NCBI GenBank assembly: GCA_029935315.1
Contig: JAOZKN010000012.1
Coordinates: 1 to 38,689 of the forward strand
Source of the DNA: Desulfocapsa sp.
Lineage (GTDB): Bacteria > Desulfobacterota > Desulfobulbia > Desulfobulbales > Desulfocapsaceae
Length of the DNA: 38,689 bases
Direction of reading: 5' to 3'
Shown one piece after another: positions 5,518-32,644 of the stretch. Every line of letters starts with the position of its first letter. The first letter of the stretch is position 1. The notes beneath the pieces were generated by a model that made no database searches, was not told the DNA's origin, and saw only the letters and a list, made by a program, of their open reading frames with translations. A program made the translations under genes and the position numbers.

Positions 5518-6582
5518 TTAGTTGACCACTGTGGAAAGAGGTAGGCTAAATATAAAGGTGGCCCCATGACCGAAGATGCTTTCAACACGCAAGTCACCCT
5601 TGTGGAGTTCCATTATTTTTTTACTGATGGCAAGGCTCAATGCGGTACCTTTGGTATGGTTCTCAATTTGCTGGGAATAAAACTCGTCAAATATTTTTTC
5701 TGTGAGCATTGGGTCAATTCCCGGACCCTGATCACTCACACGAAAACAAACATTCGTTGTATCGCAGGTTGCCGAAATAGTCACTGTACAGTGCTGCGGA
5801 GAAAACTTTATCGCATTATCAATTACGGCCGACATGGCTTCGTGGAAAAGCTTCCAGTCAACTTCAAGGCTGAAATCAACCGGACAGTCAAGGTGTAAAG
5901 AGCATGCTTTATTTGAGTCATGTTCCTGCTGGTTCACTATCGCCTGGAGATATGTCAAGACTGATTGTTGGCCAAAATTGAGTGGGCGACGGTTTTTCAG
6001 ACTAGAGAGAAACAGGATTTTCTGTACCAGATCATGGATCCGTTCTCCTGAGATTTTGATCAGTTTTGCATATTCTATGATCTTATCAGGCAGGCCGTCA
6101 GTATCAAGGATCAACTGACTCCCAAGCAGAATACCGTTTAACGGTGTTCTGGTCTCATGGGAAAAGAGTTGTAAGATTCCTGTTTTTAACTCATCAATTT
6201 CTTCAGTTTTCTTTAACTTTGAAAACACCTTCAGCTTGGCCAGAAGTTCGTCGTCCACAAAGGGTTTTGTGATATAATCATCCGCCCCTGCTTCATAGCC
6301 CTGCAGGCGTTCTTCCACCATGGCTTTACCGCTTACCATGAGGACTTTTGCAAATTTATGTCTGCCATCATTTTTTATTCGTCTGCAGACTTCGTATCCA
6401 TCAATACCGGGCATCATAATATCAAGAATGATAATATCAGGATGATAACTATTGAGCATGGAAAGAGCTGTGGCTCCATCGGGAGCGGTCTTGCTTTGAA
6501 AACCTTCCTCATATTCGAGGATCTCTTCGATCAGCTTGATATTAATGGGTTCGTCGTCAACAATAAGAACTTTGATAGCCAT
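5518..6582 (-). CDS. receiver-histidine kinase hybrid (REC-HisKA-HATPase)
   Basis: This 354-residue soluble protein opens with a receiver domain (1-120) with the acidic pair D9/D10, phospho-acceptor D54 in IILDIMMPG and K106 in ITKPF. It continues into HisKA with H142 in SHETRTP and a HATPase_c domain (about 235-350). The N box (DNAIKFS) and the DQGPGI box are intact, but the G2 lid, normally GxGLGL, is GTALSL. The domain order is REC before kinase, so it may be driven by phosphotransfer from another kinase, the obvious candidate being the membrane kinase encoded 20 bases downstream. No DNA-binding output domain is present. Confidence 0.87.
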   Translation of the reverse strand: MAIKVLIVDDEPINIKLIEEILEYEEGFQSKTAPDGATALSMLNSYHPDIIILDIMMPGIDGYEVCRRIKNDGRHKFAKVLMVSGKAMVEERLQGYEAGADDYITKPFVDDELLAKLKVFSKLKKTEEIDELKTGILQLFSHETRTPLNGILLGSQLILDTDGLPDKIIEYAKLIKISGERIHDLVQKILFLSSLKNRRPLNFGQQSVLTYLQAIVNQQEHDSNKACSLHLDCPVDFSLEVDWKLFHEAMSAVIDNAIKFSPQHCTVTISATCDTTNVCFRVSDQGPGIDPMLTEKIFDEFYSQQIENHTKGTALSLAISKKIMELHKGDLRVESIFGHGATFIFSLPLSTVVN

Positions 6583-6731: not shown

Positions 6732-7796
6732 TTAAGGGCTTGAAAAAAGATCTATGGCCGCATCTACCACTGTAGGGTCATATAATTTTCCTCTGTTTAT
6801 TTTTAATTCATCCATGGCAGTGTCAATCCCGAGACCGGAACGGTATGGGCGAGGCGTTGCGATAGCTTCGATAACATCAGCTACTCCCAGAACCCTTGAC
6901 TCAATCAGGATGGCATCACCTGCTATTCCAAAAGGGTAGCCCGAGCCATCGAGCCGTTCGTGATGTTGCAGAACGGCTTCAGCAACAGGTGATTTGAATT
7001 CGATATCTTTTAATATACCATAGCCTGTCTCAGGGTGTGACTTAATAAGAGAGAATTCTGTTGTACTAATTTTACCAGGTTTACTTAATATGGAGGTAGG
7101 AATACAGATCTTACCTAGATCGTGAACTGCACCAGCCATGCCAATGCCAGTTATCTGTTCATTGTTAAGCCCCATACTCCTGGCAATATCTTTAGCTATA
7201 ATCATTGTTCTCTGCTGATGCCCTGCTGTATATTGGTCTCTGCTCTCCATGGTTCTGCTTATGGCATTAATGGTATTCTGAAGACTTTTTTCCTGCTTTT
7301 GCATGGATTCTTCAAGTTCTTCTGTGACGAACATGTGTTCGGTTGTTTCTTTGTATATCATTGCAATGGTCCTGGGAGTACCGTCATTGTCCCTTGAAAA
7401 AACCTGGGCCTTTCCCATCAAGGACTTCTCGGTCCCATCGTCAGTAACCATTTTCACTTCATGCTCCTTGATATTGTCCTCAAACAGGGCTCTTTTGATC
7501 AGACATTCAGACTGCTCGTTGCACAACCATACAGGGGATGAGTAAACATCATAACAATGCTTGCCAACCATATCCTTGCCGAAAAGATCCCGAGCTTTCT
7601 CGTTAGCCCATAAAACCTTCAAGTTTCTACTGACCAGGCTTACATGGCTATCAACCAAATTTAGAATGGCGCAGGATTCTGGATAATTCTTAAAATGAAT
7701 ATCCTCATTGCAATCGAAAATGGCAGGCATTTTTAAAGTATCCAATTTTGCGATTTTCCTGGATAATCCTTCCTGTATCTGTTGCCCTATTTTCAT
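6732..7796 (-). CDS. PAS-HD-GYP cyclic-di-GMP phosphodiesterase
   Basis: From the ATG at 7796 the protein has 354 residues. A PAS domain (about 37-152) carries a cysteine-rich segment (CYDVYSSPVWLCNEQSEC) like the PAS variants of anaerobes that may sense redox state or a metal. A short coil (155-180) leads to an HD-GYP domain with HD at 225-226 (VHDLGK) and HHERLDGSGYP near 278-288, the signature of c-di-GMP hydrolases. An ATG 39 bases upstream (7835) has no ribosome site, while 7796 has AAGGAGAG correctly placed. No membrane segment is seen, so it is cytosolic. It lies between the kinase pair and the MerR-type regulator on the same strand, with a separate promoter candidate. Confidence 0.88.
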   Translation of the reverse strand: MKIGQQIQEGLSRKIAKLDTLKMPAIFDCNEDIHFKNYPESCAILNLVDSHVSLVSRNLKVLWANEKARDLFGKDMVGKHCYDVYSSPVWLCNEQSECLIKRALFEDNIKEHEVKMVTDDGTEKSLMGKAQVFSRDNDGTPRTIAMIYKETTEHMFVTEELEESMQKQEKSLQNTINAISRTMESRDQYTAGHQQRTMIIAKDIARSMGLNNEQITGIGMAGAVHDLGKICIPTSILSKPGKISTTEFSLIKSHPETGYGILKDIEFKSPVAEAVLQHHERLDGSGYPFGIAGDAILIESRVLGVADVIEAIATPRPYRSGLGIDTAMDELKINRGKLYDPTVVDAAIDLFSSP

Positions 7797-7800
7797 TGTT

Positions 7801-7808
7801 CTCTCCTT
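7801..7808 (-). promoter_or_regulatory. ribosome binding site fixing the HD-GYP start
   Basis: AAGGAGAG on the minus strand, with its GGAG core six bases before the ATG at 7796. The alternative upstream ATG at 7835 has only AT-rich sequence before it. Confidence 0.75.
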
Positions 7809-7871
7809 CTGCCTGGCGGTATTATTTTTAGACATAAATCTTATCTAATTATTATTTCGGGGATTCAATAC

Positions 7872-7940: not shown

Positions 7941-9494
7941 TTATTTCGATGTTCGTTCTGTTATTTCAGTGATTGCAAGGTTGGTAATTGGTTCAAAAGC
8001 CATACTGGCACCATTTTCTGTGGCGATAAGGTCTGCAGGCAGGGCAAAAGCGTCTAGTTGTAATGTCATTCCTTTACCCTGATTTCTGTAAACACCGAAT
8101 GTTAATTCCTGTCTGTCTTCAACCGGCATTTTACAAATCAAGTCTTTTGTAGCCCAGATTTCTCCATTACTGGCAAATTCTGAAAGTTGTCTGGCCACCT
8201 TGACAGAAGTGCCAAGGGCTGTAAATTCAACATGTCCGCCGGAACGTATAGCTCCAAAATATTCTCGACCCTCATGGACAACTGCGATATTGAGGAAAAG
8301 TTTATGGCTCAATCCTTTTTGAAGGACAAATTCACTCATAAACTTGTTCACAACTTTACGAAGTTCCATAGCACAGTTAATGGAATGAAGGAGGTAGGTG
8401 TCGTCGTGGTCTTTAATGAAATAATAGAGCATCTCATTTCCAGCATGCCTGCCGTAAGTGCCATAATATTTATCAAACACCGGGCTTGCCACCTGCCAGA
8501 GATCATTGATGAATTGAAAGTACTGACAGGGGAGCAATTCTGTACATATTTTTTCTAAATTCTGAACCGACGCAACCAGAGTGCAGAGGGAAACCATAGA
8601 AGGCATTCTGTTATCAAGCAATTCTTTGATTATTTTCTCACGCTGGGTAAGCATGTTAATAACAGAAGAACTGTTTTCATCTGCTGGTACAAAAACCACC
8701 AAGGTGCCTTCACGATAGGTTTCACTGTGGACCAGGAAATTTTCTAATGAGTCAGGGCTTTTACCGTTAAGAGAAAATGGTTGGTGGTAAAGGTTGTCTG
8801 TCGCTAAAGGTTGCCTGTTCTTATAAGCTTTTAAAAGAAGAGTTGTTTCATCAGAAGTGATTCCGGTATAGGTCTGAGCGAAGTCGCCACCAGGCATATT
8901 TCTTTGAAGAAGTGTACAGTGGAGACCAACCAGTTCCTTCCAGTTTTTGATATTGCGGTGAAGGGCAGGGGAGAACAGGAATTTAAATATATTACGGGAC
9001 TCCACGTCACCAATCGAATTGATTTCCTGGTTGAAAATTACTTGTTCGGCCTGTTTGTTAACCCATTCAATTTCAAGATTGTTATTTATCAAATAAGCAG
9101 GTGACGTGAGATTCTCAATTGTTACTTTCAGGGTCTTTTGTTCGTTGCGCCGCCTGTGTTTTAGCCTCGGGCCAGGCACATCTTTTTGTTCCTCGTCGGT
9201 ATCAGCAGGTACTTCCTGTACGACTCGGAGCCCTTCCACCCAATTTTTATCTTGAAACAGTTCAGTAATCTCTTCCATGGATTTACCTTGCTGTTTCAAT
9301 TTCTTGACCTGTTTTATCCACTGCAATGATTCTATGGGAAAATAACCAATTTGCTTAACGCCTTCCTGATCAGGGCCAGGGCGGCTGACAACTGGGCGGG
9401 GAAGGATTCCAAACTTAATGTAATTATTAAGCGTAGCTCTTGAGATGCCGGCCTGTTCAAGTATTTCTTTGCTTGTTATTAAGTTATTATTCAT
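7941..9494 (-). CDS. MerR-type regulator with PAS and degenerate class III cyclase domain
   Basis: This 517-residue protein begins with a MerR-like winged helix (residues 4-80: SKEILEQAGISRATLNNYIKFGILPRP, then the IGYFPIESL wing). A basic linker (110-118) leads to a PAS-like domain (about 120-260) and a C-terminal domain (about 295-480) resembling class III adenylate/guanylate cyclases. The cyclase match rests on YYGTYGRHAGNEMLYYF (about 343-359), where family members have GD, and FTALGTSVKVARQL (424-437), matching the ytviGxxVNxAaRL strand. The metal Asp of the second motif is Asn353 and no Asp is seen in the first (VSLCTLVAS), so catalysis is unlikely and a sensory role is inferred. The start has no clear ribosome site. 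It is divergent from the cobalamin operon across a repeat-rich region. Confidence 0.8.
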   Translation of the reverse strand: MNNNLITSKEILEQAGISRATLNNYIKFGILPRPVVSRPGPDQEGVKQIGYFPIESLQWIKQVKKLKQQGKSMEEITELFQDKNWVEGLRVVQEVPADTDEEQKDVPGPRLKHRRRNEQKTLKVTIENLTSPAYLINNNLEIEWVNKQAEQVIFNQEINSIGDVESRNIFKFLFSPALHRNIKNWKELVGLHCTLLQRNMPGGDFAQTYTGITSDETTLLLKAYKNRQPLATDNLYHQPFSLNGKSPDSLENFLVHSETYREGTLVVFVPADENSSSVINMLTQREKIIKELLDNRMPSMVSLCTLVASVQNLEKICTELLPCQYFQFINDLWQVASPVFDKYYGTYGRHAGNEMLYYFIKDHDDTYLLHSINCAMELRKVVNKFMSEFVLQKGLSHKLFLNIAVVHEGREYFGAIRSGGHVEFTALGTSVKVARQLSEFASNGEIWATKDLICKMPVEDRQELTFGVYRNQGKGMTLQLDAFALPADLIATENGASMAFEPITNLAITEITERTSK

Positions 9495-9548: not shown

Positions 9549-9591
9549 GTTCTATTTAGACAGGTGTCAAGCCTTACTGTCTAAATAGAAC
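9549..9591. repeat. 15-bp perfect inverted repeat, likely operator
   Basis: GTTCTATTTAGACAG (9549-9563) is repeated in inverted orientation as CTGTCTAAATAGAAC (9577-9591) with a 13-base spacer. It lies 55-100 bases before the start of the MerR-type gene (ATG at 9494), where an autoregulatory operator would sit. There is no U-tract, so it is not an obvious terminator. Confidence 0.75.
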
Positions 9592-9698
9592 CATGTGAAG
9601 GTGGTGATGTCAAGGAGTAAATACACACGTACCTTAATTAAACCACGAGCTGTGCCTTTCAACCTATGTATAGTGTTGATGTGGCGACTATTTACGGA

Positions 9699-9715
9699 CT
9701 AGACCAAGTGTCTAG
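9699..9715. repeat. second TAGAC/GTCTA inverted repeat
   Basis: CTAGAC (9699-9704) and GTCTAG (9710-9715) are separated by five bases. The core is the same as in the larger repeat at 9549-9591. Further single half-sites lie at 9730 (GTCTAAAA), 9782 (TGTCTATC) and 9814 (TTAGACA). Confidence 0.55.
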
Positions 9716-9964
9716 GTAGTAGATTGAAGTGTCTAAAAGAGTGCCGACAACCAGTACTTCCCTGGAGTTGGCTCTGTTAAATGTCTATCGTGTCGTGTAT
9801 TAAATCATGTCGATTAGACACCTTAGTGTCAAGTTGTAGATGGGGGGATTATAGTAGACTAGAGCGAATTTGAGCGTCAAAGTATTGCTTTTGTGACCTC
9901 TCTTTTCAGGGGTGAGGATGATCAAAAAGTTTTTCAGAATATGTCCCATCCTCTTTGGATTTAT

Positions 9965-10055: not shown

Positions 10056-10099
10056 CTTGTGTTTTTCAAATGATCTGGTTACCATTTAAAAAACACAAG
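10056..10099 (+). promoter_or_regulatory. stable hairpin in the putative cob operon leader
   Basis: CTTGTGTTTTT (10056-10066) pairs with AAAAACACAAG (10089-10099). Inside, AAATG and CATTT can extend the stem. The resulting arm of about 16 bp encloses a loop of roughly ten bases. It has no U-tract, and it matches no riboswitch class that I recognise. Confidence 0.5.
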
Positions 10100-10195
10100 C
10101 AACGGTCATTAAAAGTGGCTCCATTTCTTTATCCTGAAAGATTCCATGATTACACCAAAGTGCTGCAGGAATATGTACAAACCGGATGTATCTTC

Positions 10196-10783
10196 GTGAG
10201 TGAAAAAAAACAGCTTATTCTTTTGCGTCACGGGAAAACAGATTGTCCAAATCGTTATGTGGGCTCCCGTGATGTACCCCTTTCTCCCCAGGGTGTCAGC
10301 CAGATCAAAACACTGGAAAACATTCTGCATGACATGGAAATTAATAGGATTATTTCAAGTCCTATGTTGCGGTGCAGGCAAAGCTGTGAACTGTTATTTG
10401 CTGGCCGTCCTGTTCGTTATGAAGAGAATTTACGGGAAATTGACTTTGGTCGCTGGGAAGGGATGACTTTTGCTGAAATTGCTGAAAGCGATCCTGCTCT
10501 TGTTGAACAGTGGGCAGACTGGTCCCTCGACTTTTGTTTTCCCGGAGGGGAATCCATTGGCCATTTTGTGGATCGGGTAACAAAAACGGCACAACTCCTT
10601 GCTGGCTTACAGGAAAAAAATGTTATGCTTGTCTGTCATGGTGGTGTAATACGAGCATTGCTCTGTTATTATCTTGGCCTTGGTCCTGAAAATTATCTTC
10701 TTTTCCAGATAGAAAAAGGTAACTTTTCCACCCTTGACCTGTATGGTGAACGTGGTGTGTTGACTGGTCTAAATCTTGGGTAA
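10196..10783 (+). CDS. cobC: alpha-ribazole phosphatase (histidine phosphatase family)
   Basis: This protein removes the 5'-phosphate from alpha-ribazole phosphate or adenosylcobalamin phosphate in the last steps of cobalamin assembly. From the GTG at 10196 it has 195 residues, the usual family length. [10 protein letters not shown] contains the phospho-histidine. Further signatures are [25 protein letters not shown] and [11 protein letters not shown] with the second catalytic His. The frame is open upstream to an ATG at 9998, but that extension of 66 residues has no ribosome site, shows no homology I recognise, and would cover the leader hairpin. I therefore prefer the GTG, although its own ribosome site is weak. 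It heads the cob operon, and cobU follows after 5 bases. Confidence 0.85.
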
Positions 10784-13226: not shown

Positions 13227-15800
13227 ATGATGACAGAGCCAAATCCTTCTTATACCCATGGCGGAAATATTCAGGCCGCCGCCAGAGAAACTTCTCTCAA
13301 CATATCTCAAATCCTTGATTTCAGTGCAAACATTAATCCCCTTGGTCCGCCGGAATGGTTGCGCCCCTGTATCAGTAGTAGTCTCGATACCGTATTGCAT
13401 TACCCGGATCCTTATGCCAGCGAATTAAAAGAAATTATTGCGGCTCGATATGCTTGTGATGCGGACACTGTTATTGTGGCCAATGGTTCCACTGAACTTC
13501 TCTATCAGTTGCCCAATGTCCTAGATTGCAGGCGGGCTGTCATTCCTGTTCCATCCTATATTGACTACTGTAAGGTGATGGAACTTGCCGGTATTCCCGT
13601 ACTCCAGCTTCCCTTGAATGAAAAACAGGATTTTGTTCCGGATCTAAACGATATAGAGAGGGTGCTTGTCCCTGGTGACATACTTATTTTAGGAAATCCC
13701 AATAATCCCACCGGTGCACTGCTTGATACCGTTGCATTTAAAAACCTTGTCAGCCGACATCCTGATGTGACATTTCTACTGGATGAGGCCTTTCTTGAGT
13801 TTGTGACAGGCGAAAAAAGTCTTGCCGGAAACAGCGAAAATTTAATAACCCTTCATTCGCTGACCAAATTTTATGCAATCCCTGGATTACGGCTGGGATT
13901 TGGGGTCTTTCCCCGTTCCATAGCCTTAAAACTGCAGAAGCATCTTCCACCCTGGACGGTGAATAGTCTTGCTCAGGAAGTTGGCAAGAGGGCAGTAGGG
14001 GACAGTGAGTATCAGAATAATTCCAGAAAATACTTTCAAAGCTGCAAAGATCTTTTTTTGCGAGGCCTCGGTCGTTTTTCAGATCTTCATATTTACCCTT
14101 CGGCAGCCAATTACCTTCTTATTCGACTGCAGGGGAGTTTGTCCGTAAGCAGTCTTGCCCAGCAATTAGGAAAGAAACAAATATTAATTCGGGACTGTGC
14201 TAATTATTCTAGTCTTGGTAAGGAATTCTTCAGGATAGCCGTTCGTAGCAAGGAAGAAAATAAAAATTTTCTGCAGGCGCTTGGGCAAATCCTCTCCCCC
14301 TTACACAAAAGGAGCAGCAAACAAAAAACACCGGCCATCATGTTCCAGGGTACTTCCTCAAATGCCGGAAAATCAGTTCTTACAGCAGCCCTGTGTCGGA
14401 TCTTGTTGCAGGATGGAGTCCGTATCGCACCCTTTAAGGCACAGAACATGTCTTTAAATTCATATGTTACCCATGACGGCCTTGAAATGGGCAGGGCACA
14501 GGTCGTACAGGCGCAGGCGGCCCGACTTGATCCTGATGTACGTATGAACCCGATATTGCTCAAGCCAAACTCAGATACCGGCAGTCAGGTTATTGTAAGG
14601 GGAAAACCCCTGGGCAATATGGCGGTGATGGATTATGTGAAATACAAGCAAAATGTGATGACAGATGTGTGCAACTGTTATGATGATCTTGCTGATGAGT
14701 TTGATGCCATAATTCTTGAAGGCGCAGGCTCTCCCGGGGAAGTTAATCTCAAACGTCATGATATCGTAAATATGCGGATGGCACGTTACGCAAAATCCCC
14801 TGTAATCCTGGTGGGCGATATCGACAGGGGCGGAGTGTACGCTTCCTTTGTAGGAACAATGGAAGTGCTCAACAACTGGGAACGTGCACTTGTTGCAGGT
14901 TTTCTGGTAAACAGATTTCGTGGTGACAGTGCTCTTTTACAGGATGCACACGATTACGTCCGGATGCATACAACTAAAAATGTCCTTGGCGTAATTCCCT
15001 ATATCCATAATCATGGCATTCCTGAAGAGGATTCTGTGTCCTTTAAAGATGGACTGTTTGCATGTGCTGAACCGCAACAGGATCATATAGAAATTGTAGT
15101 TATCAGCCTTCCTCATATTTCCAATTTTACAGATATCGAACCATTTGCAGCGGAACCGGATGTCTTTTTGCGAATCATTGATCAACAGGAAGACATTGGC
15201 AACCCGGACGTAATTATTTTGCCGGGCTCAAAAAATGTAATCGGTGATTTGCAGGCCCTGGTGAAATCTGGTCTTGCAGCTGAAATTATGGAAAAAGCAC
15301 GAAACGGCACTGAGATTGTAGGGATCTGCGGCGGATATCAAATGCTTGGCAAAAGTATCAAAGATCCCCTTGGTATTGAGTCGAAGCAGGGTGATATTCA
15401 AGGACTGTCCCTACTCAACATGCATACTGAACTTGCTGCGGCAAAAGTACTGCGACGCAGGACAGGAATACATATTGAGTCTGCTCAATCCGTGGTTGGC
15501 TACGAGATTCATCATGGACTGACCCGGACAGACGAGGCTCCCCTGTTTACATATGATGATCAGAGTTGTTGTGGTACTGCATCCAAAACTGATACAATAT
15601 GGGGGAGTTATCTCCACGGACTCTTTGATTCTGACTCCTTTCGTCGCAGTTTTATCAACAATGCCCGAAGACGTAAGGGGTTGGAAGAGTACAAGGGGAC
15701 ACAGGTCTGTTATGATCTTGAGCCCGCTTTTGATCGTCTGGCAGATGTCGTACGGGCAGGTCTTGATATGGATTATGTCTATAAGCTCCTCAACCTATAA
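13227..15800 (+). CDS. cobQ: threonine-phosphate decarboxylase / cobyric acid synthase fusion (CobD-CobQ)
   Basis: This 857-residue protein contains two usually separate enzymes. Residues 1-360 are a class I/II aminotransferase-fold CobD, with GNPNNPTG (156-163) and the PLP lysine K214 in HSLTKFYAIPG. It makes aminopropanol phosphate from threonine phosphate. Residues 368-857 are CobQ/CbiP, with the ATP loop FQGTSSNAGKS (373-383), KAQNMSLNS, the glutaminase nucleophile C701 in GICGGYQMLG and H797 in WGSYLHGLF. It amidates adenosyl-cobyrinate a,c-diamide to cobyric acid. The linker around 361-367 is short and basic. All catalytic residues checked are present, so both halves should be active. 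The products of the two halves (aminopropanol phosphate and cobyric acid) are the two substrates of the CbiB encoded next. Confidence 0.93.
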   Translation: MMTEPNPSYTHGGNIQAAARETSLNISQILDFSANINPLGPPEWLRPCISSSLDTVLHYPDPYASELKEIIAARYACDADTVIVANGSTELLYQLPNVLDCRRAVIPVPSYIDYCKVMELAGIPVLQLPLNEKQDFVPDLNDIERVLVPGDILILGNPNNPTGALLDTVAFKNLVSRHPDVTFLLDEAFLEFVTGEKSLAGNSENLITLHSLTKFYAIPGLRLGFGVFPRSIALKLQKHLPPWTVNSLAQEVGKRAVGDSEYQNNSRKYFQSCKDLFLRGLGRFSDLHIYPSAANYLLIRLQGSLSVSSLAQQLGKKQILIRDCANYSSLGKEFFRIAVRSKEENKNFLQALGQILSPLHKRSSKQKTPAIMFQGTSSNAGKSVLTAALCRILLQDGVRIAPFKAQNMSLNSYVTHDGLEMGRAQVVQAQAARLDPDVRMNPILLKPNSDTGSQVIVRGKPLGNMAVMDYVKYKQNVMTDVCNCYDDLADEFDAIILEGAGSPGEVNLKRHDIVNMRMARYAKSPVILVGDIDRGGVYASFVGTMEVLNNWERALVAGFLVNRFRGDSALLQDAHDYVRMHTTKNVLGVIPYIHNHGIPEEDSVSFKDGLFACAEPQQDHIEIVVISLPHISNFTDIEPFAAEPDVFLRIIDQQEDIGNPDVIILPGSKNVIGDLQALVKSGLAAEIMEKARNGTEIVGICGGYQMLGKSIKDPLGIESKQGDIQGLSLLNMHTELAAAKVLRRRTGIHIESAQSVVGYEIHHGLTRTDEAPLFTYDDQSCCGTASKTDTIWGSYLHGLFDSDSFRRSFINNARRRKGLEEYKGTQVCYDLEPAFDRLADVVRAGLDMDYVYKLLNL

Positions 15801-31505: not shown

Positions 31506-31548
31506 AGTGTCTGTCCATTAATGAGTATTTTTGCTATGGACAGGCACT
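31506..31548. terminator. hairpin between convergent genes
   Basis: AGTGTCTGTCCAT (31506-31518) pairs with ATGGACAGGCACT (31536-31548), 13 bp with one G-T wobble and a 17-base loop. It lies directly after the U32 stop and overlaps the stop codon of the convergent cyclic-nucleotide-fold gene. TTGCTTTT follows on the plus strand, so it may stop both transcripts. Confidence 0.55.
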
Positions 31549-32644
31549 AGTTGCTTTTCGCTCTCCCTTCATCAAGACGTCGCATACCTTCCATTAGCAG
31601 TTTCATAAAATAGCCAATTTCCGGAACTTCAAAATCTTCCGTGGGTATTCCGGGTGTAAACCTGAACCGACCTTCCTGTTCTTTCAGGATCTCATAGAAC
31701 GCTGTTTCACCAATATGGGTATCATACTTTGCCTTAATCAGTGAACCTTGTCTAAAAGAAAAACGGGCGGTTCCTTTCTGTAAATGGTTAATTGTCAAGA
31801 TACCGGTCTTATTGTTCATATTAAGGGTCTGAAAGAGGGCTTCCGCAGGGATTTCTGCAAGATTTCCTATCATTCCCGAGGAGAGATCTTTGCCGCGGAT
31901 GGTGTTGGAGGTTGTCAGACGCTTTGCCAGCAGGCGAGTGAAATAGAGCTGAACAGCTGGATATTGTTCAAGAATTTGCTGGAAGTTTTTTCTGTCAATA
32001 TAAAGAATTGATGACGGCTCCTGCACCTGAATGGTTGCTCCCACACAATCATTACAGATCAGGCTCATTTCCCCAAACACATCGCCTTTCGACAGGCTTG
32101 AGATAGACATGCCACGGTCATTAATAACGTTAACAGACCCGCTGACGATAATGTAAAAATTACCACCAGGGTCACCTTTACGTATGACGATATCGCCTTT
32201 GTCAAGCTTGTTCACTTTGAAAAAGTTAACAACCTTTTCCAGGTTGTTTGCATCTATATTTTTAAAAAAGGCAAAATCAGAAAGGAGGTGAATCATGGAG
32301 CTCAGTTCATTGGAGAAACCATCCTCGGCAGCATCCTCGGCAAGTATCAGCTCTTTTTTATATTCAAGCCGGAGAGACCCTGTACAACCACTGCAACTGA
32401 CCATGCAGACGGGAATTTTATCTGCGCGTTCATACTGGACAATGATTCTTGTAAGATCACCATTTAAGATTTTACATTTTTCTTTTTCTACGGGTGAGTG
32501 AATAATGGCAGTGACAACAAAGGTGTTCTCTTCATTGGAGTTCATCGCAATGGTAATACCCATCACTGAAAAAGCATCCCCAAAAGAATAGAGAGGACAT
32601 TTTGTAGTTTCAGAAACTGTAAAGACCGCCTTAGGGAAAGCCAT
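31547..32644 (-). CDS. cyclic-nucleotide-fold / DUF4388 protein
   Basis: This 365-residue protein has three parts. Residues 1-105 are an unassigned N-terminal domain with three clustered cysteines (CMVSCSGC). Residues about 120-235 form a cNMP-binding fold, with the phosphate cassette GDVFGEMSLICNDCVGAT. The C-terminus (about 255-345) is a DUF4388 domain (MIGNLAEIPAEALFQTLNMNNKTGILTI), common in deltaproteobacterial signalling proteins. The cassette lacks the Arg that contacts the cyclic phosphate (RxAT is VGAT), so it may not bind cAMP. No DNA-binding helix-turn-helix is present. No ribosome site is clear at the start. Confidence 0.83.
   Translation of the reverse strand: MAFPKAVFTVSETTKCPLYSFGDAFSVMGITIAMNSNEENTFVVTAIIHSPVEKEKCKILNGDLTRIIVQYERADKIPVCMVSCSGCTGSLRLEYKKELILAEDAAEDGFSNELSSMIHLLSDFAFFKNIDANNLEKVVNFFKVNKLDKGDIVIRKGDPGGNFYIIVSGSVNVINDRGMSISSLSKGDVFGEMSLICNDCVGATIQVQEPSSILYIDRKNFQQILEQYPAVQLYFTRLLAKRLTTSNTIRGKDLSSGMIGNLAEIPAEALFQTLNMNNKTGILTINHLQKGTARFSFRQGSLIKAKYDTHIGETAFYEILKEQEGRFRFTPGIPTEDFEVPEIGYFMKLLMEGMRRLDEGRAKSN

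Follow-up and report, generated by a model that had tools for sequence, protein, structure and literature searches.

A probable autoregulatory region of palindromic half-sites upstream of a MerR-type, cyclase-domain regulator gene in Desulfocapsa

The regulator and its cyclase-type domain

The window analysed here, a stretch of 38,689 nucleotides from a Desulfocapsa genome, carries on the minus strand, at 7941-9494, the gene of a 517-aa regulator in which a MerR-type HTH (about residues 7-82), a low-confidence linker (about 92-120), a PAS-like region (about 121-285) and a class III nucleotide cyclase domain (about 297-480) follow one another. Downstream of it, on the same strand, lies a PAS/HD-GYP gene (6732-7835; Pfam HD_5 and PAS_9) whose HD...HHERLDGSGYP signature is intact. 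Its pairing with the regulator recurs in the nearer homologues from the same order and is missing in most others. Upstream, beyond a cluster of short repeated words at 9549-9861, begins the divergent cob operon cobC-U-T-S-CobDQ-CbiB.

The winged HTH at the N-terminus is matched by PF13411 (MerR_1) at 27.2 bits, against a Pfam cut-off of 21.6, and a MerR-type match with E up to 0.01 is found in 40 of 56 homologues. In the AlphaFold2 model (mean pLDDT 87) the long antiparallel dimerisation helix sought after the HTH was not found; this monomer model has only a short helix at 83-91, followed by pLDDT below 50 at 92-120. The next region consists of strands and helices and has weak Pfam matches to the ligand-binding domain of other regulators, and our reading of it, based on the model, is that of a PAS-like domain.

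The cyclase fold at the C-terminus is shared with the class III adenylate cyclases CyaB (3r5g) and CyaC (1wc1), which Foldseek retrieved with the model at E 2e-9 and which a family profile search of the PDB recovered by sequence at 1e-16; neither matched structure has a MerR head. Guanylate_cyc (Pfam) is matched in 55 of the 56 aligned homologues, the sole exception being the regulator of the window. The catalytic positions were assigned by alignment with the residues that we take to be those of CyaC, namely the two metal Asp, the Lys/Thr pair of base specificity and the Asn/Arg pair. The family retains these metal Asp, Lys, Thr, Asn and Arg positions, with D309 and D353 present in all 55 other aligned homologues and K349, N432 and R436 in nearly all. 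The window's copy reads S309, R349, N353, T425, K432 and Q436, so that five of the six are lost, which is seen in this copy alone among the 56, as is the replacement of D, D and G by S309, N353 and E354. This protein is probably not an active cyclase, to judge from its residues, and with the catalytic residues gone its cyclase domain would serve only as a pseudo-enzyme or a dimerisation module.

Half-sites in the window and upstream of homologues

The elements pointed out in the initial annotation are all there. The 15-bp inverted repeat is exact (9549-9563 and 9577-9591, with a 13-nt spacer); a second group of words occupies 9699-9738 (CTAGAC at 9699, facing GTCTAG at 9710, and TGTCTA at 9709 and 9730); and more distal copies lie within 9782-9820 (TGTCTA at 9782, TAGACA at 9815). 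The recurring word GTGTCAAG stands at 9564 and 9826, with a third TGTCAAG at 9608. Six of the 15 copies of TGTCTA/TAGACA in the window fall within 264 bp (9557-9820), and this word ranks first among the 6-mers of the window by local clustering (Poisson tail 1.5e-8, a per-word value with about 2,000 words compared). None of 5,000 order-1 Markov simulations of the intergenic region reached six copies of it, the simulated maximum being four; at least six copies of any word, not chosen beforehand, appeared in about 1% of such simulations.

The copies thus stand, and the description of them as a 6-bp word is better replaced by that of half-sites of a 17-bp near-palindrome, AWTTAKACWGTMTAAWT, which emerged from a seeded motif refinement over the regions upstream of homologous regulators. 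The inverted repeat carries the two best half-sites of the window, one per arm (9554-9562 and 9578-9586), each reading TGTCTAAAT on its own strand. The half-sites here are mostly single, and the full palindromic model gives the two best ones modest scores; only two intergenic sites exceed 7, and equal or higher scores occur elsewhere in the window, as do half-model clusters of similar size. The weight of the argument therefore falls on comparing genomes. We also looked for a dominant spacing between half-sites and found none.

This comparison used two sets of homologues, the first being the best 80 of 271 relatives, taken from named genomes, and the second coming from the order of the window, where 16 of 258 genomes carry a homologue (within its genus and family, only the window's own genome). 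For 76 homologues, from several proteobacterial classes, Desulfobacterota and other groups, at least 300 bp of upstream sequence was available. Around these genes the density of TGTCTA/TAGACA is 4.45 per kb in the 450 bp upstream, versus 0.19 per kb in the remainder of these loci, with a peak of 12.6 per kb at 50-100 bp from the start codon. At least one copy is found within the 450 bp in 66 of the 76, and at least two in 47; the word is present in 13 of 14 representatives below 50% identity. Next to cyclase relatives that lack the MerR head it has a density of only 0.16 per kb, i.e. background. The palindromic model yields 257 sites in 75 of 78 regions and a free model 316 sites in all 78, and the refined models give 479-516 matches as against about 30 in Markov sequences; because these models were trained on the very upstream regions in which they were then counted, the independent measure is the density of the 6-mer.

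The same region contains a promoter-like element. On the strand of the regulator GTGTCAAG reads CTTGACAC, which includes the -35-like box CTTGACA (9565-9571, minus strand), about 70-77 bp upstream of the regulator ATG and inside the inverted repeat, where the two best half-sites flank it; further copies on the minus strand are at 9608-9614 and 9827-9833. Upstream of homologous regulators CTTGAC is found 66 times in the sense direction versus 5 in the antisense, mostly at 60-165 bp. In the window, no good -10 box is evident at the right distance downstream of the proximal CTTGACA. We compared the arrangement with that of the MerR regulator family, in which the operator lies between -35 and -10 boxes spaced 19-20 bp apart; the spacing after CTTGACA, judged by eye, is variable and mostly about 14-18 bp.

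We considered whether a rearrangement left the inverted repeat behind at its junction, as a mobile-element end or as a structural hairpin. The locus has indeed been rearranged (see below) and the repeat would form a perfect stem of 15 pairs, but the genome has no second copy of the region, ATTTAGACAG occurs six times, two of those here, and the same word stands before homologues in unrelated surroundings, so that we find this origin very improbable. Some microRNA matches on the repeat were weak, below the curated cut-off, and were discarded as artefacts of the palindrome.

Conservation of the half-sites and CTTGACA in front of the regulator extends to distant bacteria, without cob genes there, and this supports the autoregulation that had been suggested for the adjacent regulator: the half-sites, whose absence from the upstream regions of orthologues would have spoken against it, follow the regulator gene across phyla. 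We therefore consider it quite likely that 9549-9861 is the regulator's own control region.

The neighbouring cob operon

It had also been suggested that the same sites might control cobalamin synthesis, and here the comparison is not favourable. A divergent cob operon was found beside none of the 80 homologous regulators (the best 80 of 271 relatives); at one locus cobT is in tandem with a regulator homologue. Conversely, cob loci of the same genus carry 0-1 copies of TGTCTA/TAGACA per about 1.65 kb, with no cluster.

The neighbourhood itself has a history. In two same-genus genomes the genes cbiG-cbiH-cobC-U-T-S-CobDQ-CbiB are divergent from a hybrid kinase gene, the counterpart of which is at 5518-6582 in the window, with the regulator and the HD-GYP gene sitting between the kinase and the cob operon. 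At the cob position of the window cbiG is missing, and of cbiH there is only a remnant, the decayed 3' end at about 10068-10197 (plus strand), recognised by blastn and by DNA alignment to the cbiH 3' ends of relatives, continuing across the start of cobC. None of 200 shuffles reached the score of this alignment in 14 of 18 loci; the DNA alignment is significant, and a tblastn comparison of CbiH with the remnant is not significant by itself. The homology in same-genus genomes begins within the remnant, where there are stops, and the CobC match runs from 10205. It is likely from this that cobC (alpha-ribazole phosphatase; 10198-10783, plus strand) starts at GTG 10198, and that the ORF call from ATG 9998 is about 200 bp too long. 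The adjacency of regulator and cob operon looks like the outcome of a local rearrangement that removed cbiG and the greater part of cbiH from this position.

That the regulator also controls the divergent operon cobC-U-T-S-CobDQ-CbiB appears unlikely to us. The half-sites do reach 9820, toward the cob side, and an operon deprived of its upstream part needs some promoter; but distal sites are seen before the homologues as well, their density declining out to about 400 bp, and about 380 bp separate the closest exact copy of the word from the probable cobC start, which is itself some 200 bp farther off than the ORF call had placed it. The proposed cobalamin control is thus not supported beyond the adjacency, which in our view reflects the rearrangement. 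A B12-sensing regulator of the CarH/LitR type, acting on the cob genes, might come to mind since a MerR-type HTH adjoins them, but the protein ends in a cyclase fold and gave no Pfam match to a B12-binding domain; this domain content contradicts such an assignment, which we regard as having practically no chance of being right. No Rfam family is present in the window, and no cobalamin riboswitch was found before the cob operons of relatives.

In the genome of the window CbiC and other corrin-ring genes are on contig C61, and CbiH was not found above the curated cut-off (contigs concerned: C50, C61 and C33), an absence that is provisional in a draft assembly of 257 contigs. This Desulfocapsa genome may lack part of the de novo cobalamin pathway. 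Within the operon, 13227-15800 encodes a CobD-type aminotransferase fused to a cobyric acid synthase (857 aa), and a similar fusion exists in same-genus relatives.

Mode of action, targets and known systems

We propose that the regulator, presumably the protein that recognises these words, adjusts transcription of its own gene by binding half-sites of AWTTAKACWGTMTAAWT that surround its sigma-70-type promoter (CTTGACA...); the downstream HD-GYP gene is probably adjusted with it. Binding may repress, as the sites overlap the -35/-10 region in many homologues, and the PAS-like and cyclase-type domains would carry the signal.

The set of targets suggested by our searches is narrow. The pattern CTGTMTA-N0-30-TAKACAG has few matches in 12 regulator-bearing genomes, and five of about ten, located by contig coordinates or by sequence, are at the regulator's own promoter. 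The window's own genome has no match to this pattern and shows no enrichment of the single palindrome (27 places versus 51 for the reversed control), so that no wider regulon could be named.

Several known systems offer partial parallels. GlnR and TnrA also have a MerR-like wHTH without the classical coiled coil and a compact two-fold operator, and GlnR has a flexible linker between the head and the part that contacts the effector (PMC9249791), like the linker of the present regulator. However, their operator, TGTNA-N7-TNACA, differs from AWTTAKACWGTMTAAWT, they sense glutamine synthetase and they have no cyclase domain. BldC resembles the regulator in its MerR-like head, in the variable number of sites before target genes and in the lack of the MerR coiled coil (PMC5859096). 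It is a protein of 68 aa that binds AATT-type direct repeats head to tail (PMC5859096), whereas the window's regulator has 517 aa in several domains (PAS-like and cyclase-type) and its family motif is palindromic; we do not place it in this family of HTH-only proteins acting on direct repeats.

For the combination of a MerR-type head with a class III cyclase domain we found no dedicated NCBIfam model, and our full-text literature search returned no relevant paper; a testable operator can now be proposed for this architecture. A broader idea, possible in our opinion though rather doubtful, is that of a widespread and undescribed family of DNA-bound adenylate cyclases, in which the MerR-type head would hold the cyclase on its own promoter and thereby join signal input, cyclic nucleotide synthesis and own expression into a single loop, other targets being few or absent; the member in the window would have lost catalysis and be a regulator only. 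More generally, guessing targets from a neighbouring pathway operon, as is commonly done, can mislead where the neighbourhood has been rearranged.

Two other genes of the window may be mentioned. The product of 31547-32644 combines a cyclic nucleotide-binding domain with DUF4388 and is possibly a cAMP-responsive protein, and 980-2665 joins prephenate dehydratase, ACT and prephenate dehydrogenase-type parts in a single ORF.
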